64,000 nucleotides of DNA from Pseudooceanicola onchidii (GTDB taxonomy: Bacteria > Pseudomonadota > Alphaproteobacteria > Rhodobacterales > Rhodobacteraceae), in contig NZ_SPUW01000002.1 of NCBI RefSeq assembly GCF_004959925.1, positions 124,001 through 188,000 of the forward strand, written 5' to 3'. Each line of letters starts with the position of its first letter. Within the stretch, counting starts at the first letter, position 1. The position numbers were made by a program, and so were the translations under genes. Of this stretch, positions 51,917 through 61,256 are shown piece by piece. Under the pieces are notes generated by a model. That model searched no databases. It was not told the origin of the DNA and was given only the letters and a program-made list of their open reading frames with translations.

Positions 51917-51978
51917 TCGCAGGCATCAGCTGGGGTCGTCACCGATCCCCGCGCAGGCAGGTCATGATCCACAGCTAT

Positions 51979-51997
51979 TGACTATTTTTATCAGGTA
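51979..51997 (+). promoter_or_regulatory. Iron-block operator copy C, upstream of the exb/tonB operon
   Basis: TGACTATTTTTATCAGGTA matches 14 of 19 positions of the copy at 57100-57118. It also has the TGA-N9-TCA form known for RirA iron-responsive operators of rhizobia. It lies 66 nt before the first gene of the exbB operon, and with the preceding T it forms TTGACT, a possible -35. Confidence 0.65.
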
Positions 51998-52063
51998 TTC
52001 GACAACCTTCGCGACCGCGGCACAGCCCGCGACCCGGATTCCCAGAGGCGAAAGGTGGACAAG

Positions 52064-52492
52064 ATGCGGAAAAGGCTGACTTCGATGATGGCGGGGACGG
52101 CGATGATCCTGTCCTCCGCCCCCCTGGCCGCCCAGGATCAGACACCGCACATGTCGGTCGAACTGAACGCCGCGCAGCCGCAGGATGACGCCTGCAAGCT
52201 GTCGTTCCTGGTGCAAAGCACGCACGAGGCCGCGATCACCAAGGTGGTCTATGAGACGGTGATCTTCGATGCCTCGGGTCAGGTGAACCGGCTGACGCTC
52301 TTTGATTTCGGCGCGCTGCCGCCGGGCCGCCCGCGCGTGCGGCAGTTCGTCATTCCCGCGACCGCCTGTGACGGGATCGGGCAGATCCTGTTCAACGGGG
52401 CACAGACCTGTGACGGCGCGGGCCTGCCCGAGGGCGCCTGTTCCACCGGGCTTGAGCTTAAGACCCGCACCGAGATCGAGGTGATCGGATGA
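52064..52492 (+). CDS. Exported protein of unknown function in the exb/tonB operon
   Basis: A 142-residue protein beginning MRKRLTSMMAGTAMILSSAP. The signal peptide is about 1-23 (ending PLAAQ). The mature domain has four cysteines and reads like a small beta-rich periplasmic protein, with KVVYETVIFDASGQVNRLTL near the middle. The ATG at 52064 follows AAGGTGG by 5 nt; a GTG at 52055 is the alternative. It overlaps exbB by 4 nt, so it is part of the TonB-energising operon. I do not recognise the family; its constant link to exbB suggests a helper of iron or heme uptake. Confidence 0.75.
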   Translation: MRKRLTSMMAGTAMILSSAPLAAQDQTPHMSVELNAAQPQDDACKLSFLVQSTHEAAITKVVYETVIFDASGQVNRLTLFDFGALPPGRPRVRQFVIPATACDGIGQILFNGAQTCDGAGLPEGACSTGLELKTRTEIEVIG

Positions 52493-53139
52493 CCGCCGTT
52501 CTGGACCTGATCCGCCGCATCGCCGACATCGGCGGCCCTGTCGTCATGATCCTGCTGGCCGTGTCGGTGATCACCCTGGCCGTGGTGCTTTACAAGATCT
52601 GGCAATTCACCGCCGCCGGCGTCGGGCGTCACCGCGCGCTGTCGCAGGCGGTCGCGGCCTGGGATGCCGGTGACCGGGCGATCGCCCGCGAGGCCCTGTC
52701 GCGGTCGACCAGCTATCTCGCCCCGGTTGTCGATCAGGCGTTTTCGTCCGGCCCCGGCGCGACCGAACGGCTCGAGGCCGAGGCCGAGATGCGCTTTGCC
52801 AAGCTGGAACGCGGGCTGCGCTATCTGGACAGTGTCGCGCAGTTGGCCCCGCTGCTGGGTCTCTTCGGGACGGTTCTGGGCATGATCGAAGCGTTCCAGG
52901 CGTTGCAGGATGCCGGGTCGCAGGTCGATCCGTCGATCCTTGCCGGCGGTATCTGGGTGGCGCTTCTGACCACGGCGGTCGGGCTGGTGGTGGCCATGCC
53001 GACGGCGGTGGTCCTGTCGTGGTTCGAAGGCCGGATGGACAGCGAACGCGTGCTGGCCGGGCGCGCGATCCAGACGGTGCTGCAACCGCGCGGATCTGCC
53101 CCCGTCGGCGCGCCGGAAGGTGTGCCCGCCCATGCGTAA
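52489..53139 (+). CDS. exbB: TonB-system proton channel ExbB
   Basis: A 216-residue MotA/TolQ/ExbB-family protein with three membrane helices: one near 17-38 (GPVVMILLAVSVITLAVVLY) and two in the second half. AQLAPLLGLFGTVLGMIEAF (about 118-137) is the signature, and GIWVALLTTAVGLVVAMPTA carries the conserved Thr of the proton path. ExbB pentamers surround ExbD and energise TonB. It lacks the long N-terminal periplasmic extension of some ExbB. It overlaps exbD by 8 nt. Confidence 0.93.
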   Translation: MTAVLDLIRRIADIGGPVVMILLAVSVITLAVVLYKIWQFTAAGVGRHRALSQAVAAWDAGDRAIAREALSRSTSYLAPVVDQAFSSGPGATERLEAEAEMRFAKLERGLRYLDSVAQLAPLLGLFGTVLGMIEAFQALQDAGSQVDPSILAGGIWVALLTTAVGLVVAMPTAVVLSWFEGRMDSERVLAGRAIQTVLQPRGSAPVGAPEGVPAHA

Positions 53140-53518
53140 GGCCAAGAGGGCATCGCGGCTGTCGATGACGTCCCTGATCGACGTCATCTTCCTGCTGCTG
53201 CTCTTCTTCATGCTGACCTCGACCTTCTCGAAATTCTCCGAGGTCGAGCTGATGGCGGCCGGATCCTCCGTGGGCGCATCCTCGGACCGTCCGCCGCTGT
53301 TCCTGCGCCTGTCGCCTGAGGCGCTGAACCTCAACGGTCGCGACCTGGCGGTCGAGGGGCTGGCCGAGGCGCTTGGCCCGGAAGCCGACGTCGACAGCCC
53401 GCGGTCGCTGATCGTGGCACTGGCGCCCGAAGTCACCGCGCAGCGGCTGACCGACCTGCTGGTGGTGCTGCGCGGCGTGCCGGGCGTGACGCCGATGGTT
53501 CTGGGGGGCGGAACGTGA
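53132..53518 (+). CDS. exbD: TonB-system protein ExbD (first copy, with proton Asp)
   Basis: A 128-residue ExbD. The basic tail MRKAKRASR leads to a single membrane helix with the essential Asp17 in LSMTSLIDVIFLLLLFFM, and a periplasmic domain ends LRGVPGVTPMVLGG. The ATG at 53132 lies in the exbB end and follows GGAAGG; an in-frame ATG at 53120 is less likely. It is directly followed by a second ExbD-like gene, overlapping by 4 nt. Confidence 0.93.
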   Translation: MRKAKRASRLSMTSLIDVIFLLLLFFMLTSTFSKFSEVELMAAGSSVGASSDRPPLFLRLSPEALNLNGRDLAVEGLAEALGPEADVDSPRSLIVALAPEVTAQRLTDLLVVLRGVPGVTPMVLGGGT

Positions 53519-53904
53519 AGCGCAAACGCGAAAGATCGAAACGCGAACCGACCATTGCGCTGATCAACATCGTCTTCCTGATGCTGGTGTTCTTCATGGT
53601 CGCCGGATCGCTGGCGCCGCCCTTGGACAAGGATCTGGCACTGGTCGACACCCGCGATCTGGACGGCGTCGCGCCGCCCGATGCGCTGGTCGTGCATCCC
53701 GATGGACGGCTCAGCTATCGCGGTGAGGCGATCGTGGACGCGGCGGCCTATCTTGCCGGGTCAGACGGGGACGCCGAGACCAAGGTCGCGCGGATTGTGC
53801 CCGACCGGAACCTGCCCGCCGGTCAGCTGGTCGCGCTGGCCCGCGATCTGCGGGTGGCCGGTGCGACCTCGGTCCTGATTGTCACGGAACGGGGGCTGGA
53901 ATGA
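53515..53904 (+). CDS. Second ExbD-like protein with Asn in place of the proton Asp
   Basis: A 129-residue ExbD-family protein with the same layout as its neighbour: basic tail MKRKRERSKREP, one membrane helix and a periplasmic domain. In the helix it reads IALINIVFLMLVFF, so Asn18 stands where ExbD carries the proton-binding Asp (codon AAC at 53566-53568). It starts with GTG within the exbD stop and overlaps tonB by 4 nt. It may pair with the first ExbD in a mixed dimer. The ExbD call is clear; the functional effect is inferred. Confidence 0.88.
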   Translation: MKRKRERSKREPTIALINIVFLMLVFFMVAGSLAPPLDKDLALVDTRDLDGVAPPDALVVHPDGRLSYRGEAIVDAAAYLAGSDGDAETKVARIVPDRNLPAGQLVALARDLRVAGATSVLIVTERGLE

Positions 53905-54941
53905 TCGCGTCGTCAAAACCGCTCAAGATCCTGGCGCTGGTCGCCGCCGGCGTGATGCACACCGCCGTGGCCGTCGCGCTGATCCGGGACGAGCCCGTGC
54001 TGGTCGAAGGCATGGCCGGCGGTCAAGAAGCGCAGATCGGGTCCAGCTTTGCCGACATGGCGGCAGGCACGATGACGCCCGAGCCGGTCGAGGACACCAC
54101 CGAGGTCGTGGAGCCGGAGGAGGTCGAGACGGCCGAGATCGAGCCGGTCGACACGCCCGAGCCCGAGTTCAGTGAAGCAGACCCCGTCGAGGCCGACCTC
54201 GCGGAAGCGGAGACGCCTGACACCGCAGAACAGCCGACCCCGACCGACACCCCCGTGGTGCCGGAGCAGATGGCCGCGCTGGTGCCCGAGGTGCCCGACG
54301 GCGCGCTGGCCCCGGTGCCGGACATCGCGCAGCCCGAGGTGGCCGAACCCGAGCCGTTGACGCCCGAGGTGCTTGAAGCCGCGAAACCCGAGATCACGGA
54401 AACCGCCCCGGTGACAGAGCCTGTTGAGACCCTGCAGGCGCAGACGGACGTTCCGGTGACGGAAATGTCCAAGCGGCCGGTCATGCGCGATCCGGCGATG
54501 GAAACGCCGATCAAGCGGGCCGAGGCGCCGAAGCCCAAGCCGAATCCCAAACCCGTGGCCAAGAAGGCCCCGCAGGGCAACGCCCAGCAAAACGCGCGGG
54601 CCGGGTCGACGACCGGATCGCAGACCGCGACCGCCAAGGCCCAGGGTGTGGCCAAGGGCAAGGCGACCGAGTCCGGCAATGCGGCCGTCAGCAACTATCC
54701 CGGCCAGGTGCAGCGCAAGCTGGCGCGGGTGCGCAAACCGTCGATGAACCGGCGTGGCACGGCCTGGGTGGCCTTTTCGATCAACGCCTCAGGCGGGCTT
54801 GGCGGGGTGTCGGTCAGCAAGTCGTCCGGTGATGCCCGCATCGATCAGGCCGCACTGAAGATGGTGCAGCGCGCCGCACCCTTCCCCCGCCCCCCCGCAG
54901 GGGCGCAACGCCGCTTTTCGGTGCCGATCCAGTTCCGCTGA
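53901..54941 (+). CDS. tonB: Energy transducer TonB
   Basis: A 346-residue TonB. The N-terminal membrane anchor (about 8-26, LKILALVAAGVMHTAVAVAL) includes the His expected in TonB. A long acidic and Pro-rich rod of EP/ET repeats (about 55-170) and a basic Lys-Pro stretch (about 205-225) follow. The C-terminal domain ends AAPFPRPPAGAQRRFSVPIQ. TonB carries energy from ExbBD to outer-membrane receptors. It is the last gene of the operon; a two-way terminator follows. Confidence 0.94.
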   Translation: MIASSKPLKILALVAAGVMHTAVAVALIRDEPVLVEGMAGGQEAQIGSSFADMAAGTMTPEPVEDTTEVVEPEEVETAEIEPVDTPEPEFSEADPVEADLAEAETPDTAEQPTPTDTPVVPEQMAALVPEVPDGALAPVPDIAQPEVAEPEPLTPEVLEAAKPEITETAPVTEPVETLQAQTDVPVTEMSKRPVMRDPAMETPIKRAEAPKPKPNPKPVAKKAPQGNAQQNARAGSTTGSQTATAKAQGVAKGKATESGNAAVSNYPGQVQRKLARVRKPSMNRRGTAWVAFSINASGGLGGVSVSKSSGDARIDQAALKMVQRAAPFPRPPAGAQRRFSVPIQFR

Positions 54942-54964
54942 TCCAACAATGGCAATGACATGAA

Positions 54965-54992
54965 AAAACCGCGCCCCGATAGGCGCGGTTTT
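54965..54992. terminator. Two-way terminator between tonB and the TonB-dependent receptor
   Basis: An 11-bp stem AAAACCGCGCC / GGCGCGGTTTT with a 6-nt loop. It has T-runs on both strands and lies between the convergent tonB and receptor genes. Confidence 0.9.
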
Positions 54993-55039
54993 GCTTTGCA
55001 AGGTGTAGTCCGGGGGGCGCATTGGCCCCCCGGCCCGGA

Positions 55040-57013
55040 TCAGAACCGCATCGTCGCCATGATCCCGAAGGACCGGCCCGGTTCTGTCAGCGGAACCACG
55101 TTGGCAAAACCGACACCGTCGTTGCCGCGACCCGAATAGGTTTCGTCAAAGACGTTCTTGATGTCGAACCGCACTTCAAGGTTCTTGACCGCCTTGGGCT
55201 TGTAGGTGGCCCAGAGGTTCACGACCTCGTACCCCGGCAGCGCCGAATAGGGCGCCCCTAGAGAGGCGGGGGCATCGTTCTTCAGCGCGATCTCGGCGGT
55301 GCCGCCGATGCGGATCTCCTCGGTCACGTCATAGGCGCCCGAAAGGCCGATGATGTGGCCGACCGGACGGCCGACATAGTAGCCGGTGGTCGGCGTGGTC
55401 GATCCGTTGGTCTTGACGTCGGCGTAGGTCCAGTTCGCCTCGAAATACCCGCGCGACGCGGTATGGCGCATCGACAGGTCGACACCCTGAGAGGTGATGG
55501 TGTTGACGCTGGCCGCCGCCGTGAAGGGATCGTCCGCCCCGGTGATTTCCGTGTGGAACAGTGCCCCGGCCAAGGTCAGCGGACCCTGTTCGAACCGCAG
55601 GCCGATCCGGGCATTGTTGGCGCGGCTGGTCGTCGGGGTTGCATAGGTGGCAAAGCTGTTGGTCAGCACGCCGCCCCGCAGCTGCTGGAGGTTGATGAGC
55701 GAAGCTTCGTTCAGCTCGTACCCGCCCCAGACCGAGGCCGCCCCGACGTTCAGCGTCAGCTGGTCGGACAGGATCACGTCGGCCGAGGCATTGGCGCTCA
55801 GCCCGCTGTCGCTCCACTTCTGGCCGGTCGGGCTGGTGAAGGTCTGGCTGTCGGCGCGGAAACCGTAAGATAGCGACAGGCGGTCGCCGACATCCTGCCG
55901 CATCTGGGCATAGACGCCGATACTTTGGACCTTTTCGCTGTTGACCGAGGCATAGGTGTTCGCCGTGGTGCCGACCGGACCGATCGGCGTGGCTTCGTCG
56001 ACAAAGAAATCGACACCCGCCGTCAGGACACCGCTGCCGACGTAGAAGTCGTTTTCGATCTTGCCGGACAGGCTGGTGTTGCGGCCCTTCACGGTGCCGA
56101 CGTCGACATATTGTTCGTTGAAGGCGAGCTGAATCGTGGGCGTAAGGGCGCCGTCGGGGTTTTCGTCGCTGTAGGTCAGCGCATAGCTGGTGCGTTCCGT
56201 CACGGCCATCAGATAGGTCGTGGGCCGCCCGGGCACGGCTTCGAAGTCGGGCCGGGCAAAGCCGCCCTGGAACGGCCGCATCCCCTTGTCCGAGATATTC
56301 TCGGCCGAGAATTCGATCCGCTTGCCGCTGTCCGAGGTGTAGGCGAACTTGCCGAAATAATCCGTCAGCTCGGGTTCCGTCCCGCCGATGGTCTTGCCCG
56401 AGCCATCGACGTAATCGTCACCGGTCTGGTGCGAATAGCCCAGCAGGTATTCGAAGCCGCCCTGCAGGCCGAAGACGGCCAGGTTGCGCCGGAAGCCGTT
56501 GCCGTTGGAATTGTAGGCAAGCGAGGCGACACCGCCGAAGGTATTGCCATCTTCCAGAAGGTCGGCGGCATCCTTGGTTTCATAGGCGATCACACCGGCC
56601 AGCGCGCCGGGACCCGCATCGGCCGGGGCAAGGCCCGAACTGACCTGCACCTGTTTCAGCAGGTAAGGGTCGATCGGCACGTTGCCGGTGTGATGGAAGG
56701 CGCCCTTGTTCTGGCGCGCGCCGTCGATGGTGACGGCCAGGTTGCTTTCCTCGATCCCGTGCACCATCACCTTCTGCGCCACAACGGCACCGCCGGTGGC
56801 CAGGATTTCGGACTGGCCCGCGAAAAGTTCGTCAGCCGAGGCGGCGTTGCGTTCCGCCATTTCCTCTTCCGAGATGACGGTGTTGCCAAGCGCGTCCTGC
56901 GCGGCATCGCTTTCGACGCGGATGGTATCCAGTTGAACGACGTCCTGCGCCTGGACGAGCGGCGCGTAAAACGCCGCCCCCGCCAGCAGGATCGCCTTGC
57001 GAGAGAGTGTCAT
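55040..57013 (-). CDS. TonB-dependent outer-membrane receptor (siderophore/iron-chelate type)
   Basis: A 657-residue receptor. The signal peptide is about 1-22 (ending VQAQ), with a TonB box-like DVVQLDTIRVESD next. The plug domain contains LATGGAVVAQKVMVHGIEES and TIDGARQNKGAFHHTGNVPI. A 22-strand beta-barrel ends in the Phe terminus (GIMATMRF). It faces the tonB operon and lies beside an iron-chelate ABC transporter, so an iron complex is the likely cargo. Heme, catecholate or hydroxamate specificity cannot be read directly. Confidence 0.92.
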   Translation of the reverse strand: MTLSRKAILLAGAAFYAPLVQAQDVVQLDTIRVESDAAQDALGNTVISEEEMAERNAASADELFAGQSEILATGGAVVAQKVMVHGIEESNLAVTIDGARQNKGAFHHTGNVPIDPYLLKQVQVSSGLAPADAGPGALAGVIAYETKDAADLLEDGNTFGGVASLAYNSNGNGFRRNLAVFGLQGGFEYLLGYSHQTGDDYVDGSGKTIGGTEPELTDYFGKFAYTSDSGKRIEFSAENISDKGMRPFQGGFARPDFEAVPGRPTTYLMAVTERTSYALTYSDENPDGALTPTIQLAFNEQYVDVGTVKGRNTSLSGKIENDFYVGSGVLTAGVDFFVDEATPIGPVGTTANTYASVNSEKVQSIGVYAQMRQDVGDRLSLSYGFRADSQTFTSPTGQKWSDSGLSANASADVILSDQLTLNVGAASVWGGYELNEASLINLQQLRGGVLTNSFATYATPTTSRANNARIGLRFEQGPLTLAGALFHTEITGADDPFTAAASVNTITSQGVDLSMRHTASRGYFEANWTYADVKTNGSTTPTTGYYVGRPVGHIIGLSGAYDVTEEIRIGGTAEIALKNDAPASLGAPYSALPGYEVVNLWATYKPKAVKNLEVRFDIKNVFDETYSGRGNDGVGFANVVPLTEPGRSFGIMATMRF

Positions 57014-57128
57014 GTCCCATTCCCCAAATATCTAACGTTCATGCTTGCTGAACGCTCGAGGGGTGGGCGCATGGCTGGCTAACAGGGTTGGCGATATTTT
57101 ACCTTAGTAAATTTGTCAATTTACCCGG
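57014..57128 (-). promoter_or_regulatory. Receptor promoter with operator array
   Basis: On the minus strand TTGACA (57114-57119) and TATCGC (57091-57096) are 17 bp apart, a plausible promoter. The spacer is filled by the dyad TTTAC-CTTA-GTAAA (57098-57111). It overlaps a second dyad, GTAAATT-TGTC-AATTTAC (57107-57124), so three half-sites are 9-13 bp apart. Between promoter and ATG there is a further inverted repeat, CGTTCA-N7-TGAACG (57036-57054). The layout fits repression of the receptor gene. Confidence 0.7.
57100..57118 (-). promoter_or_regulatory. Iron-block operator copy A, receptor promoter
   Basis: Minus strand TGACAAATTTACTAAGGTA. It lies inside the receptor's -35/-10 region and shares TTTACTAAGGTA with copy B at 60783-60801 and AGGTA plus TGAC with copy C at 51979-51997. 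Confidence 0.7.
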
Positions 57129-57881
57129 CTAGACCACCACGTAAGGACGGCCTTGCAGCGTCTCGACCGTTGCAGATGTGCCGAACACATCGCGCAATAA
57201 GGCCTCGGTCACGATCTGGGCCGGCTGACCCTGCGCGGCGATGCGACCGTCTTTCAGCACGACTAGGCGGTCGGCGAACCCGGTGGCATAGTTGATGTCG
57301 TGCAGCACGATGACGACCGTCCGGCCATCGCGATCGGCCATGTCGCGCACCAGCCCCATCAGGTCACGCGCCGCCGCGATGTCGAGGTTGTTCAGCGGTT
57401 CATCCAGCAGCAGGTACGGCGTGTCCTGCGCATAGGCCATGGCGACGAAGGCGCGTTGCCTCTGCCCGCCCGAGATCTCGTCGAGGAACCGGTGGCGCAG
57501 GGCCAGAAGATCGAACCGGGTCAGCGCCTGTTCAACGTGGTCGCGATCGATCGCACCGGGACGGCCGCGATGCCAGGGATAGCGCCCGAATGACACCAGA
57601 TCCGCAACGCTAAGCCGGGCCGACACATGGGTCGACTGCGCCATGACGGCGAGGGTCCGGGCAAGATCCCGGTCGCTGGTCCGGCCGACCTCCTGCCCGC
57701 CGACGGTGATGCGTCCGGCCTGGATCTTCTGCAGTCGCGCGATCAGGGACAGCAGGGTCGACTTGCCGGCCCCGTTCGGCCCGATCAAAGCCGTCACGCC
57801 CCCTTCGGGAAGAGTCAGATCGATGTCATGCAGGATCGGGCTGCCGCCGATGGCGTGGCTCAGGCCTTCGATGCGGATCAT
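57129..57881 (-). CDS. Iron-chelate ABC transporter ATP-binding protein
   Basis: A 250-residue ABC ATPase of the FecE/YclP type. Walker A is LIGPNGAGKSTLLSLIARL (about 32-50), the signature is EISGGQRQRAFVAMAYAQDT (about 132-151), and Walker B is YLLLDEPLNNLDIAAA. It powers import of an iron-siderophore through the two upstream permeases. Its ATG overlaps the preceding permease stop by 4 nt. It is last of the SBP-permease-permease-ATPase operon. Confidence 0.93.
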   Translation of the reverse strand: MIRIEGLSHAIGGSPILHDIDLTLPEGGVTALIGPNGAGKSTLLSLIARLQKIQAGRITVGGQEVGRTSDRDLARTLAVMAQSTHVSARLSVADLVSFGRYPWHRGRPGAIDRDHVEQALTRFDLLALRHRFLDEISGGQRQRAFVAMAYAQDTPYLLLDEPLNNLDIAAARDLMGLVRDMADRDGRTVVIVLHDINYATGFADRLVVLKDGRIAAQGQPAQIVTEALLRDVFGTSATVETLQGRPYVVV

Positions 57882-58843
57882 GCGGCTCTCCGTTTCAGCA
57901 GGAGGTAAAGGAACACCGCGCCGCCGATCAGCTCGATGACGACGGTCAGGGGCGTGGCCAGGTCCAGCAGACGCTCCATCACCAGCTGACCGCCGATCAG
58001 GATGATGCCGCCGATCAGCGCGGCGCAGGGCAGCAGGATGGCGTGGCGGTGCGTCGGTGTGACCATGTGGGCAAAGGCCGTCACGATCAGGCCGAAGAAA
58101 CTGGCCGGTCCGAAACCGCCCGACGACAGCGGCCCGGCCAGCGACGTCGCCGCAGCCACCAGCAGACAGATCGTCAGCAGGGCCAGCCGGTGCAGAGACG
58201 CGGGGGGTTCGCCAAGGCCCGTCGCGGCCTCCTGCCCCAGGGACAGCACGTCAAGGCGGTGCCGCAGGTGCCAGGCAAGACCCGTGCCGACGATCACCGC
58301 CACGGCTGACACCGCCAGAAGCACGCCGTCGATCTGGGTGAACCGGGCAAAGGACAGCGACTGCACCGTCTGGAATTCATTCGGGTCGATCAGCCGCTGC
58401 AGAAATTCGGTGATCGCGCGGATCAGCAGGCCGATCACGATCCCGGTCAGCACAAGCCGCACCATGTCACCCCGCGCCAGCCGCATCAGCACGCCGAACA
58501 GCACCAGCCCAAGCGCCGTCATTGCCGTCAGGTTCAGCGCGAAAAGCACCCCGGGCGACAGGGCGGAAAACCCGACCGAGCCGAGCGTATGCACCAGGGC
58601 CGTCAGCACGAAGACATACAGGGCATCGAACCCCATCAGGGACGGCGTCAGGATCCGGTTGCCGGTGATCGTCTGGAACAGCACCGTGGCCACGGCGATC
58701 GCCACACCCACCAGCATCAGCGCGGCCAGTTTCGTCAGCCGGTAGGGCAGGATGAACGCGACCGGCCCCTTGAGGTCGATCAGGATATAGGCCGCCGCGC
58801 TTAGCGCCAGCAGGAGGGCCAGGGCGATCAGGCGTCTAGGCAC
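57878..58843 (-). CDS. Iron-chelate ABC transporter permease 2 (FecCD family)
   Basis: A 321-residue FecCD-type permease with about nine to ten helices. Family pieces are TGNRILTPSLMGFDALYVFV and GPLSSGGFGPASFFGLIVTA near 235-254, then HMVTPTHRHAILLPCAALIG. The start is GTG at 58843, preceded by GGGGGCGGA. It overlaps the first permease gene by 8 nt. It pairs with that permease to form the import channel. Confidence 0.92.
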   Translation of the reverse strand: MPRRLIALALLLALSAAAYILIDLKGPVAFILPYRLTKLAALMLVGVAIAVATVLFQTITGNRILTPSLMGFDALYVFVLTALVHTLGSVGFSALSPGVLFALNLTAMTALGLVLFGVLMRLARGDMVRLVLTGIVIGLLIRAITEFLQRLIDPNEFQTVQSLSFARFTQIDGVLLAVSAVAVIVGTGLAWHLRHRLDVLSLGQEAATGLGEPPASLHRLALLTICLLVAAATSLAGPLSSGGFGPASFFGLIVTAFAHMVTPTHRHAILLPCAALIGGIILIGGQLVMERLLDLATPLTVVIELIGGAVFLYLLLKRRAA

Positions 58844-59780
58844 GGGTCCGCCCCCGGTTCAGCATCACCACGAATGCCGTCGCCCCGATGACCGCGATCG
58901 TCGTGGCCACCGGCACTTCGTAGGGCGCGCGGATGACCCGGCCCAGGATGTCCGCCGCCAGCACCAGGATCGCCCCGGCCAGGGCGGTCAGCGGCAGGGC
59001 ACGCCGCAGGTTGTCCCCGGCCAGACGCGCAACAAGATTGGGCACCACCAGCCCGACGAAGGGGATCGCACCAAGGGTCACCACGATCATCGCCGTCACG
59101 ACGGAAATCGCCGCCACCGCCGCCGCCGTCACCAGCCCGACGTTCAACCCAAGGGCGCGGGCGGCGTCTTCGCCAAGGCTCAGCAGGCTCAGCCGGTCCG
59201 CGATCAGATAGGTCGCGCCCGAGGCCACAGCGCCGATCCACAGCAGTTCGTAGCGCCCCCGCAGCACGCCCGACAGCTCTCCGGTCAGCCAGGTGCCGAG
59301 AAACTGCATCATGTTGCCCTGGTAGGCCACGAAGGTCACGACCGCGCCGATCACGCCGCCATAGACAAGGGCAACCAGCGGCACCAGAAGCGGCTGGGTC
59401 GGCGGCAGGGGCCGGATCAGCGCCATCAGCCCAAGGCTGCCTGCCAACGCACAGAGCGCCGCAGCCGCCATCTTCACCCCAATCGCCGCACCCGGCAGCA
59501 CCAGCGTGCACAGCAAAACGCCAAGCGCCGCGCTTTGCCCCGCGCCCGCAGTCATGGGTTCGATGAACCGGTTGCGCGCCAGCACCTGCATCACCTGCCC
59601 GGACATGGCCAGCCCGACCCCGGCCAGTACCGCCGCGACCGTGCGCGGCAGGCGGCTTTCCAGCATCAGCGCGCGTCCCTCGGGTGTCAGAAACAGATCG
59701 GCCAGCGACTGGTCCGCCGCCCCGATGGCCAGCGACAGAAGCCACAGACCGGACAGAAGGGCAGCGCCCGCGAGACGCAC
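58836..59780 (-). CDS. Iron-chelate ABC transporter permease 1 (FecCD family)
   Basis: A 314-residue FecCD-type permease. RLPRTVAAVLAGVGLAMSGQ near 43-62 is the conserved N-terminal block, with VLARNRFIEPMTAGAGQSAA after it. ALGLNVGLVTAAAVAAISVV and TLGAIPFVGLVVPNLVARLA near 236-255 are the transport-domain blocks. The GTG start at 59780 directly abuts the stop of the binding-protein gene, so translation is probably coupled. Confidence 0.92.
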   Translation of the reverse strand: MRLAGAALLSGLWLLSLAIGAADQSLADLFLTPEGRALMLESRLPRTVAAVLAGVGLAMSGQVMQVLARNRFIEPMTAGAGQSAALGVLLCTLVLPGAAIGVKMAAAALCALAGSLGLMALIRPLPPTQPLLVPLVALVYGGVIGAVVTFVAYQGNMMQFLGTWLTGELSGVLRGRYELLWIGAVASGATYLIADRLSLLSLGEDAARALGLNVGLVTAAAVAAISVVTAMIVVTLGAIPFVGLVVPNLVARLAGDNLRRALPLTALAGAILVLAADILGRVIRAPYEVPVATTIAVIGATAFVVMLNRGRTRA

Positions 59781-60689
59781 CTATCTGTCCCCGGCCAGAC
59801 CTTCCGACACCTCGTCAATCGTCCGGTTCAGAGACTGAATTCCGCCGGTTGAGATATAGAGTTCAGCCGGGGAAAGATAGATGATGCGCCCCGCCTTGGC
59901 CGCGCGCGTGTCCTGAACCAGCGGCGTGTCCAGCGTGGCCCGCGCCGCCTGATCCCCGCCGCCGATGGCCGCCGCACGGTCCACGACCAGCAGCGTTTCA
60001 GGATCGGCCTCGGCGATGTATTCAAACGACACCGCCTCTCCGTGCCGGTTCTCGGCGATGCCCTGCACGGCCTGGCCGAACCCGACCTCGGTATGAAGCC
60101 AGCCAAAGCGGCTGTCGGGGCCGAAGACCGACAGCTTCGGCCCGTTGGTCATCAGGATCAGCGCGTCGCCCCCCGTCGACTCGACCCGCGCGCGCAGATC
60201 GGCCAGCTTCGCGTCCAGCGCGTCCGACAGGGCGGCCGCCTCATCGACCTTCCCCAGCATCTGTCCAAAGGCCTCAAGTCGCGCCTTGCCGTCGGCAAGG
60301 GCGTCCGTCCCGACGCTCATGTCCGCCACCGGGGCGATGCGCGACAGGGCATCGGCCATGGCGGCCGACCGGGGGCCGACGACGATGACATCAGGGGCCA
60401 GCGCGGCGATGGCCTCCATGTCCGGCTCGAAGAAGCTCCCCACTTTCGCGGCACCGGCGACCTGCGGCAGGTAATCGACATAAAGCGGCGCGACGACCCC
60501 GGTCGGAATCACCCCCAGGGCAGTGATCGTGTCGATGGCCGAGACATCCAGCGCAACGATGCGCTCGGGCCGGTTTTCCAGGGTCATGTCGCCGGTCGCG
60601 GTGGCGAAGGTGACCGGATCGGCCAGCACCGGCGCGGCCAGACCAAGGGACAGAAGACAGGCGGAAAACAGGCGGCGCGACAGCGGCAT
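59781..60689 (-). CDS. Siderophore ABC transporter substrate-binding protein (FatB/YclQ-like)
   Basis: A 302-residue periplasmic binding protein of the FepB/FatB helical-backbone class. The signal peptide is about 1-23 (ending APVLA). TLENRPERIVALDVSAIDTI near 34-53 and AALAPDVIVVGPRSAAMADA near 92-111 are family blocks, and RIIYLSPAELYISTGGIQSL is near the end. It is first in the operon, about 94 nt from the shared operator. The ligand is probably a catecholate-type chelate or heme-like compound; sequence alone cannot decide. Confidence 0.92.
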   Translation of the reverse strand: MPLSRRLFSACLLSLGLAAPVLADPVTFATATGDMTLENRPERIVALDVSAIDTITALGVIPTGVVAPLYVDYLPQVAGAAKVGSFFEPDMEAIAALAPDVIVVGPRSAAMADALSRIAPVADMSVGTDALADGKARLEAFGQMLGKVDEAAALSDALDAKLADLRARVESTGGDALILMTNGPKLSVFGPDSRFGWLHTEVGFGQAVQGIAENRHGEAVSFEYIAEADPETLLVVDRAAAIGGGDQAARATLDTPLVQDTRAAKAGRIIYLSPAELYISTGGIQSLNRTIDEVSEGLAGDR

Positions 60690-60816
60690 GAACGGACCTC
60701 GGGGTCATGTGTTTCTGGCTGACGCGACGGCGCTGGCTGGTCATCCGGTGCTTAACCTCTTGTCAAATATGGGTCAACAAAATACCTTAGTAAAAGAATC
60801 AGAAAGGAAGTTCCCG
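60690..60816. promoter_or_regulatory. Divergent promoter region of the ABC operon and DUF2218-hemP
   Basis: Rightward, TTGTCA (60760-60765) and TACCTT (60783-60788) are 17 bp apart. Leftward, TTTACT (60789-60794, minus strand) and CATATT (60766-60771, minus strand) are also 17 bp apart. The shared operator copy B at 60783-60801 overlaps the rightward -10 and the leftward -35, so one regulator could control both. GAAAGGAAG precedes the DUF2218 ATG. Confidence 0.65.
60783..60801 (-). promoter_or_regulatory. Iron-block operator copy B
   Basis: Minus strand TGATTCTTTTACTAAGGTA. Its last 12 bases TTTACTAAGGTA are identical to copy A in the receptor promoter. Confidence 0.7.
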
Positions 60817-61101
60817 ATGGTCACCGCCTCGACCAGGTTCGAAACGCCGAACGCGTCGAAATACCTTCAGTCCCTGTGCAAGCATTTCGCGCACAAGGTT
60901 TCCGTCAGCTACGACGCGGTCCAGGGCCGGGCGGATCTGCCGCCGGGTCCGGCGGTTCTGCAGGCCGACGACACCGGGCTGAACATCGAGGTCAGCGGCG
61001 CGGACGTGCAAAGCCTGATGCGCGCCAAGTTCATCATCGAGGATCACCTGCTGCGTTTTGCATTTCGCGAAGAACCGGAGGCCCTGCAATGGAGCGCGTA
61101 G
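60817..61101 (+). CDS. DUF2218 domain protein, iron-associated
   Basis: A 94-residue cytoplasmic protein of the DUF2218 family. Residues about 8-40 (RFETPNASKYLQSLCKHFAH) form a helix with Cys and two His, and IEVSGADVQSLMRAKFIIED plus HLLRFAFREE follow. The family often sits next to siderophore and heme uptake genes; the biochemical role is unknown, though His/Cys could bind heme or iron. The ATG at 60817 follows AAAGGAAG. Its 3' end overlaps hemP by 13 nt in another frame. Confidence 0.88.
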   Translation: MVTASTRFETPNASKYLQSLCKHFAHKVSVSYDAVQGRADLPPGPAVLQADDTGLNIEVSGADVQSLMRAKFIIEDHLLRFAFREEPEALQWSA

Positions 61102-61256
61102 TTCGAGAAGTCCGTCGGGATCCTGACCTGGCCCGGATCCCCCAGTATCGCGCCAAGGACCTGACCGGAGACGGAAAACAGGCTGAAATCGAATTGGACG
61201 GCAAGGTCTATTCCCTGCGGATCACCCGCGCCGGAAAGCTGATCCTGACCAAGTGA
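61089..61256 (+). CDS. hemP: Hemin uptake protein HemP
   Basis: A 55-residue HemP-family protein. The C-terminal signature ELDGKVYSLRITRAGKLILT is complete. In other bacteria HemP is an iron-regulated factor needed for induction of heme uptake genes. Its ATG lies in the last 13 nt of the DUF2218 gene, so translation is coupled. It is small but well supported by the family motif. Confidence 0.9.
   Translation: MERVVREVRRDPDLARIPQYRAKDLTGDGKQAEIELDGKVYSLRITRAGKLILTK

Follow-up and report, generated by a model that had tools for sequence, protein, structure and literature searches.

The 64,000-nucleotide stretch of the Pseudooceanicola onchidii genome analysed here (contig NZ_SPUW01000002.1, positions 124,001 to 188,000, referred to as the window and numbered from its first letter) contains a block of iron-uptake genes in which a 19-bp sequence is found upstream of an exb-tonB operon, of a TonB-dependent receptor gene, and between an ATP-binding cassette (ABC) importer operon and a divergent pair of genes for a DUF2218 protein and a hemP-like protein. 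The comparisons below suggest that these sequences are copies of one operator, very likely read by the regulator IscR. The genes and the three sites are:

52055..52492, plus strand: first gene of the exb operon, encoding a 145-residue protein apparently exported by its start, no Pfam match; an ATG start is possible at 52064
52489..53139, plus strand: exbB (PF01618)
53120..53518, plus strand: exbD, first copy (PF02472)
53515..53904, plus strand: exbD, second copy (PF02472)
53901..54941, plus strand: tonB (PF03544)
55040..57013, minus strand: TonB-dependent receptor, nearest to haem/haemoglobin receptor models, below their cut-offs
57129..57881, minus strand: ABC transporter ATPase, best NCBIfam matches to ferric dicitrate and haem types, below cut-offs
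57878..58843, minus strand: second ABC permease of FecCD type (PF01032)
58836..59780, minus strand: first ABC permease of FecCD type (PF01032)
59781..60689, minus strand: periplasmic iron-binding-type protein (SBP), first gene of the ABC operon (PF01497)
60817..61101, plus strand: DUF2218 protein (PF09981)
61089..61256, plus strand: hemP-like small protein, named after an initial annotation of this DNA; its only NCBIfam match, to a "hypothetical protein" family, is below cut-off
51979..51997, plus strand: putative exb-tonB operator (25-bp form resembling IscR type-1 sites, 51974-51998)
57100..57118, minus strand: putative receptor operator (25-bp form 57099-57123), over the predicted -35 and spacer
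60783..60801, minus strand: putative operator between the ABC operon and DUF2218-hemP (25-bp form 60782-60806), probably serving both promoters

The initial annotation, made from the sequence alone, had placed these three 19-mers on the coordinates and strands given above and 66-93 nucleotides (nt) before the starts of the genes, and direct sequence matching bears this out, the distances being 66 nt for the exb operator if the ATG at 52064 is used (57 nt for the GTG at 52055), 86 nt for the receptor and 93 nt for the ABC operon. On the plus strand, the third site is moreover followed after 15 nt by the start codon of DUF2218 (60817). The palindrome is imperfect, the best stretches in our own sites being 53-78% self-complementary. 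The pattern TGANNNNTTTNNTNAGGTA with at most one mismatch matches the window at the three sites only and is absent from 100 dinucleotide shuffles, and in the whole genome of 3,671,680 bases its exact matches are likewise these three, while the reversed pattern used as control has none. Since the pattern was derived from the very same sites, these statistics overstate its significance, and a test independent of them was called for.

Orthologues of the SBP, exbB and receptor genes were therefore sought in 60 genomes (our own and 59 others), and upstream regions of 27 SBP, 10 exbB and 17 receptor loci were used, the exbB set being the best 10 (L060-L069) of 30 loci, of which the other 20 are less similar exbB copies. 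With our own three regions held out, 51 remained for training. Motif learning was begun from 60 random seeds and the six best were carried on to refinement, the ones displayed being the same motif in different registers or on different strands. Its columns can be summarised approximately as ATANYTGASTAAAANRRTCA. When applied to the held-out regions, this motif recovered the ABC/DUF2218 site (32.3 bits), the exb site (30.3 bits) and the receptor site (26.7 bits) at exactly the coordinates listed. In the training set, where the figures are in-sample and thus optimistic, it reached at least 15 bits in 37 of 51 regions (21/26 SBP, 4/9 exbB and 12/16 receptor); the regions below 15 bits that are counted in these totals are L052 and L054-L057 for SBP, L062, L065 and L067-L069 for exbB, and L098, L099, L104 and L106 for the receptor. 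It should be added that some receptor matches start inside the gene, so that part of the upstream windows is coding.

A further comparison left out one promoter class at a time, with the SBP regions cropped to 215 nt and only our own sites of the training classes as seeds. The exb site then scored 28.7 bits, which none of 180 shuffles reached, and the receptor site 21.4 bits, likewise reached by none of 320. Among the relatives, 9/16 receptor, 13/26 SBP and 4/9 exbB regions exceeded the 99th percentile of shuffles. The cross-class test had failed in an earlier version, since training captured coding sequence or shifted the register: the motif trained on SBP regions placed 0/9 exbB and 0/16 receptor regions above the 98th percentile of controls, and the one trained on receptor regions 8/26 SBP and 5/9 exbB regions. 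Indeed, training on uncropped SBP regions alone captured the conserved DUF2218 coding sequence, and training on receptor regions alone shifted the register to include the -10; both were rejected, as was a matrix built from our own three sites only, which was too weak: it gave 53 matches in relatives (441,450 bases searched), where ten column-shuffled matrices gave 18-52. Recovery of our own sites in the held-out and leave-one-class-out tests supports the proposal of the initial annotation that three iron-uptake promoters share a single operator, which appears to be conserved in many relatives, although not in all.

The relation of the sites to the promoters differs between the targets. The predicted promoter elements, read from sequence, are:

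57114..57119, minus strand: receptor -35, TTGACA, common to the left half of the operator
57091..57096, minus strand: receptor -10, TATCGC
60772..60777, minus strand: ABC operon -35, TTGACC, 5 nt from the operator
60749..60754, minus strand: ABC operon -10, TAAGCA
60760..60765, plus strand: DUF2218-hemP -35, TTGTCA, the spacing of 17 being counted by eye
60783..60788, plus strand: DUF2218-hemP -10, TACCTT, inside an operator half-site, with similar hexamers in relatives

At the receptor promoter, the arrangement TTGAC[A/T]-N17-TA hexamer is kept in our own and six close orthologues; the corresponding regular expression is matched by 8/17 regions, one of them (L098) probably by chance. In 18 of the 27 SBP regions, our own included, the operator ends exactly 5 nt before TTGAC[C/G], which is followed by 17 nt and a hexamer, and this arrangement is not matched in the other nine. 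On the opposite strand, 15 of these 18 regions as judged by eye have a TACCTT-like hexamer within the operator that follows a TTG-hexamer at a distance of 17 nt (our own and L049 are in another register by regular expression and were read by eye), and TACCTT itself is found in 11/18. The third operator points toward the ABC genes, as the initial annotation had it, but probably does not serve them alone, since it also covers the likely -10 of DUF2218-hemP. That overlap is a possible explanation for the presence of TAA instead of TCA in that half-site.

What is known of IscR in related bacteria provides the most plausible identity for these sites; statements on the literature are here taken from excerpts of the papers cited. 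In Rhodobacteraceae, a 19-bp palindromic Iron-Rhodo-box, predicted by Rodionov in 2006 and likened to the RirA box, precedes iron genes (PMC4618611), and our sites, taken with the further candidates in the genome given below, are likewise a 19-bp palindromic-type motif upstream of genes for iron uptake and storage. The IscR protein of Rhodobacter sphaeroides binds the promoters of iscR and hemP, its loss raises exbBD-tonB, hemP, afuA and the gene of a siderophore-interacting protein, and its repression, unlike its binding to DNA, depends on the cluster (PMC4618611); control of tonB-exbBD by IscR has furthermore been predicted in a network study (PMC4344238). The learned motif resembles the type-1 consensus of Escherichia coli IscR, ATASYYGACTRWWWYAGTCRRSTAT (PMC3899308), to which the exb site conforms in 19/25 positions and the receptor and ABC sites in 18/25 each. 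More telling is the P3 box of R. sphaeroides, which IscR binds in gel shift (PMC6956336): its score in the best register, 19.5 against a maximum of 25.2, was reached by none of 200,000 random 15-mers, so that the motif agrees with one box, P3, known to bind IscR. TTGAC-N8-TC is moreover present in 24/30 iscR upstream regions against 5/600 shuffles.

IscR itself is encoded in the genome, as one of two Rrf2 proteins above the family cut-off. It has a single cysteine, as does IscR of R. sphaeroides, the gene after its own, where iscS would stand, is one for a class-V aminotransferase, and its closest solved relative by sequence is 7zpn. IscR was found in 35/36 family genomes searched, and Cys140 is present in all 30 IscR sequences compared (taken from the 46 genomes that have a match), 22 of them without any other cysteine and eight with a second. 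Of the five residues named as DNA contacts of E. coli IscR at a type-2 site (PMC11475020), Tyr41, Glu43, Gln44 and Arg59 are kept, while Ser40 is replaced by proline. Taken together, we consider it very likely that the three sites are IscR operators and instances of the Iron-Rhodo-box, through which exb-tonB, the receptor, the ABC operon and DUF2218-hemP would be jointly repressed in response to iron; binding by IscR, repression by its cluster form and the iron response would then be as in R. sphaeroides, from which they are drawn by analogy.

As judged from sequence, conservation of the operator is good in the genus and patchy elsewhere. Among a set of named loci, 38 regions of 21/23 loci were scored (L015 and L032 being left out), and scores that none of 50 shuffles reached were obtained for the SBP/DUF2218 region of Vannielia, both Citreimonas regions and the receptor region of Pseudophaeobacter leonis. 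Motif scoring gave no site in the receptor and exbB regions of Vannielia, and the Citreimonas receptor result depends on the start chosen (14.3 bits and 1/50 shuffles from the ATG, none from the furthest start). The Sulfitobacter locus L031 scored 16.7 bits with 1/50 shuffles as high, and again 16.7 bits with 0/50 from the furthest start codon, from which the Pseudoruegeria locus L028 reached 13.4 bits (0/50). The exbB region of L021 is weak, at 5.6 bits and 1/50. The conservation check put forward in the initial annotation thus has a mixed outcome: sites are kept in the genus and in part of the other Rhodobacterales, but were not found in others. The Roseovarius, Phaeobacter-type and Roseobacter loci (L012-L014 and L016-L022) keep the receptor and ABC genes without a clear operator at the scored promoters, and the regulator or its site may therefore differ there. 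As further observations on the promoters of relatives, those of a second receptor type (L100-L106) carry a palindrome, ATGCA-CT-TGCAT, directly before the candidate site, which is present in the siteless L104 and L106 as well, and reading frames similar to that of the 145-residue protein precede exbB in several relatives, as judged by eye.

Several points weigh against a common operator read by IscR. In the leave-one-class-out test our own ABC site scored 17.0 bits, which 2/520 shuffles reached, and 7/16 receptor, 13/26 SBP and 5/9 exbB regions of relatives remained under the 99th percentile. In the whole genome, a degenerate pattern with at most three mismatches matches 66 times and its reversed control 31 times, so that about half of the 66 are background. 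At the scored regions, no clear site was found in Roseovarius, Phaeobacter-type and Roseobacter loci (L012-L014, L016-L020 and L022), nor was a motif site found upstream of the receptor in four Rhizobium loci, whose windows were at first largely coding and were rescored from the furthest start; the Rhizobium DUF2218/SBP regions, searched for TGA-N9-TCA only, gave two overlapping matches in L027 and none in the other three. The match to the Iron-Rhodo-box was judged from its verbal description in the excerpt of PMC4618611, and the contact residues compared above belong to the type-2 and not the type-1 site. Two unrelated places in the window reach 19/25 and 18/25 to the type-1 consensus, and since these equal our sites, likeness to that consensus is not decisive by itself. 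Our motif gives -17.4 and -6.3 for two type-1 sites from Pseudomonas and therefore seems to be a lineage form. Our own iscR promoter scores just 5.3 bits (although TTGAC-N8-TCA is present), and 7/30 iscR upstream regions exceed the 99th percentile of shuffles. Finally, the second Rrf2 protein of the genome, the RirA/NsrR-like L004 (L004 1495-1956, plus strand), is a possible reader as well.

That L004 reads the sites, alone or with IscR, in a Rhodobacterales form of RirA control is in our view improbable. Its best NCBIfam match is the RirA model (135 bits, under the cut-off of 193), it has a cluster of cysteines which we take to be of the kind seen in cluster-binding Rrf2 proteins, and close matches occur in most searched genomes of the genus, more patchily than those of IscR. 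The nearest solved structure is however NsrR, and the recognition helix, inspected by eye, is without the Tyr-x-Glu-Gln of IscR. Candidate sites moreover persist where L004 does not: G034, a genome 99% complete, combines IscR with a site of 23.2 bits and lacks any match to L004 at E 1e-15, and G002 and G012 have IscR and candidate sites with L004-type matches of only 36-37% identity, while G003, with sites and no match to either protein, is a 340-contig assembly and not usable here. The initial annotation correctly noted that the first site fits TGA-N9-TCA of rhizobial RirA operators and that the other two are TGA-N9-TAA, which means that the strict RirA pattern, with 25 occurrences per strand in the window, is broken in two of three sites. 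In Dinoroseobacter shibae, RirA and IscR have been suggested to share control of hemB2, but loss of RirA derepressed no identified iron-metabolism proteins except IscA and an MntR homologue, according to the excerpt of PMC8007024. It may be mentioned separately that L004 is present although PMC4618611, in the part drawn on here, states that Rhodobacteraceae have no RirA homologue.

It is scarcely credible that the sites are Irr or Fur/Mur boxes, even though Irr (above its cut-off) and a protein of Fur/Mur type are both encoded in the genome, the latter next to a metal-binding gene of the ZnuA family. The Irr box (iron control element, ICE) TTAGAA-N3-TTCTAA, tested in the form seen in iscR upstream regions, fits none of the three sites, and a loose alpha-proteobacterial Fur/Mur box, TG(C/A)-N-A-N8-CA(A/T) (PMC9409073), with 8 occurrences per strand in the window, fits one site on one strand and misses the other two. 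A distinct Irr-type box is furthermore found elsewhere in the same genome, before iscR and next to a dps-like gene of the ferritin family (L139 near 4930), which suggests that Irr has its own sequence here. This box also occurs in 24/30 iscR upstream regions, about 27 nt past the start of the candidate IscR site. The RirA or Fur/Irr-type readers named in the initial annotation are thus not supported, the sequence fitting IscR better. Very improbable, too, is the notion that the shared letters are promoter elements only, that is -35 and -10 boxes with AT-rich spacers and no operator. A predicted -35 does fall within the receptor site, and a predicted -10 within that of ABC/DUF2218, but the position of the motif relative to the promoter boxes differs by class, being inside the receptor promoter and upstream of the ABC -35, while its sequence is constant, and the scores of our own sites are rarely reached by shuffled controls.

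If IscR is indeed the reader, the geometry suggests a simple mechanism. With plentiful iron, IscR, an Rrf2-type sensor of iron-sulfur clusters, would bear its cluster and repress the targets, lying over the -35 and spacer at the receptor, over the -10 at DUF2218-hemP, and abutting the -35 of the ABC operon. Under iron shortage the cluster would be lost and repression would end, whereupon exb-tonB, the receptor, the ABC importer and DUF2218-hemP would come on together. As the cluster is unneeded for DNA binding in R. sphaeroides, according to the source excerpted, release from DNA is not implied. A more elaborate two-way switch may be imagined, in which cluster-bearing IscR blocks DUF2218-hemP at its -10, cluster-free IscR activates the ABC operon from 5 nt before its -35, and TAA is kept because it doubles as the -10 (TACCTT), but we regard this version as speculative and rather unlikely.

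Further candidate sites were sought by pattern matching over the whole genome, the matrix then being applied to matches of the forward pattern only. At least 14 bits were reached by 17 of the 66 degenerate-pattern matches, representing 16 places since C2:913720 and 913725 overlap; three of these are the window sites and four more stand before iron-type genes. The genome scan proposed in the initial annotation thus yielded additional candidates before iron genes, with the reservation that about half of the degenerate matches are background. The candidates whose gene context was considered (C2:280121, C5:50242 and C3:590536 being left out) are given below, together with one that scores below 14 bits:

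C2:195394: before another TonB receptor, 23.7 bits
C3:294429: before a di-haem oxidoreductase, 23.4 bits
C3:270711: between a TonB receptor and a siderophore-interacting protein, 20.1 bits, with a second match of 12.7 bits at C3:270658
C3:726406: before an SBP_bac-type binding protein, 14.6 bits, likeness to AfuA by eye
C1:795372: 187 nt before a nuoA-type gene for chain 3 of complex I (L143 1973-2544), 21.9 bits
C3:293943: by the dps-like gene, adjoining the Irr-type box, 17.8 bits
C2:538036: before small genes without known function, among them one of 164 residues without a Pfam match (L141 1249-2056), 28.8 bits, third-best of the 66
C2:913720: between a kinase-like gene and a DUF808 gene (L137), matched on two strands with 24.3 and 20.8 bits, no evident iron link
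C1:367818 (inside a GmrSD-type gene) and C3:291028: no evident iron link
C2:759862: before a LysR-type gene, below 14 bits

The match before the complex I gene raises the possibility that this iron-sulfur-rich complex belongs to the regulon.

The haem/siderophore-type receptor and importer, the TonB energiser and DUF2218-hemP of the genus would thus fall into one probable IscR regulon, a worked case of an iron-sulfur assembly regulator serving as general iron switch, and the single operator probably shared by two promoters offers a testable geometry. For the pairing of DUF2218 with hemP, no DUF2218 protein was found in the literature among the matches listed. The known picture is unchanged; the switch is real, but of a kind already described in related bacteria.

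Compared with known systems, one of the sites fits the rhizobial RirA operator TGA-N9-TCA, whereas the other two have TGA-N9-TAA; many SBP orthologues conserve the GGTA(T) flank on the right-hand side, and the four Rhizobium receptor loci have no such motif site upstream of the receptor. With the E. coli type-1 site, as given in the excerpt of PMC3899308, the sites share 18-19/25 positions and the pattern of half-site and flank. The E. coli IscR protein has three cysteines and one histidine, unlike the single cysteine found here. From the Iron-Rhodo-box regulon of R. sphaeroides, as far as the excerpt of PMC4618611 goes, our locus differs in that the receptor and ABC importer are unmatched to its named genes and in that no divergent ABC-DUF2218 arrangement is seen described. 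In other respects the likeness to the Iron-Rhodo-box/IscR regulon of Rhodobacteraceae, as excerpted, is close: a 19-bp palindromic-type site over or near the -35 or -10, an IscR with a single cysteine, and targets of the types exbBD-tonB, hemP, binding protein and siderophore-interacting protein. The three sites are accordingly very probably a further example of the Iron-Rhodo-box/IscR sites already described in related bacteria.

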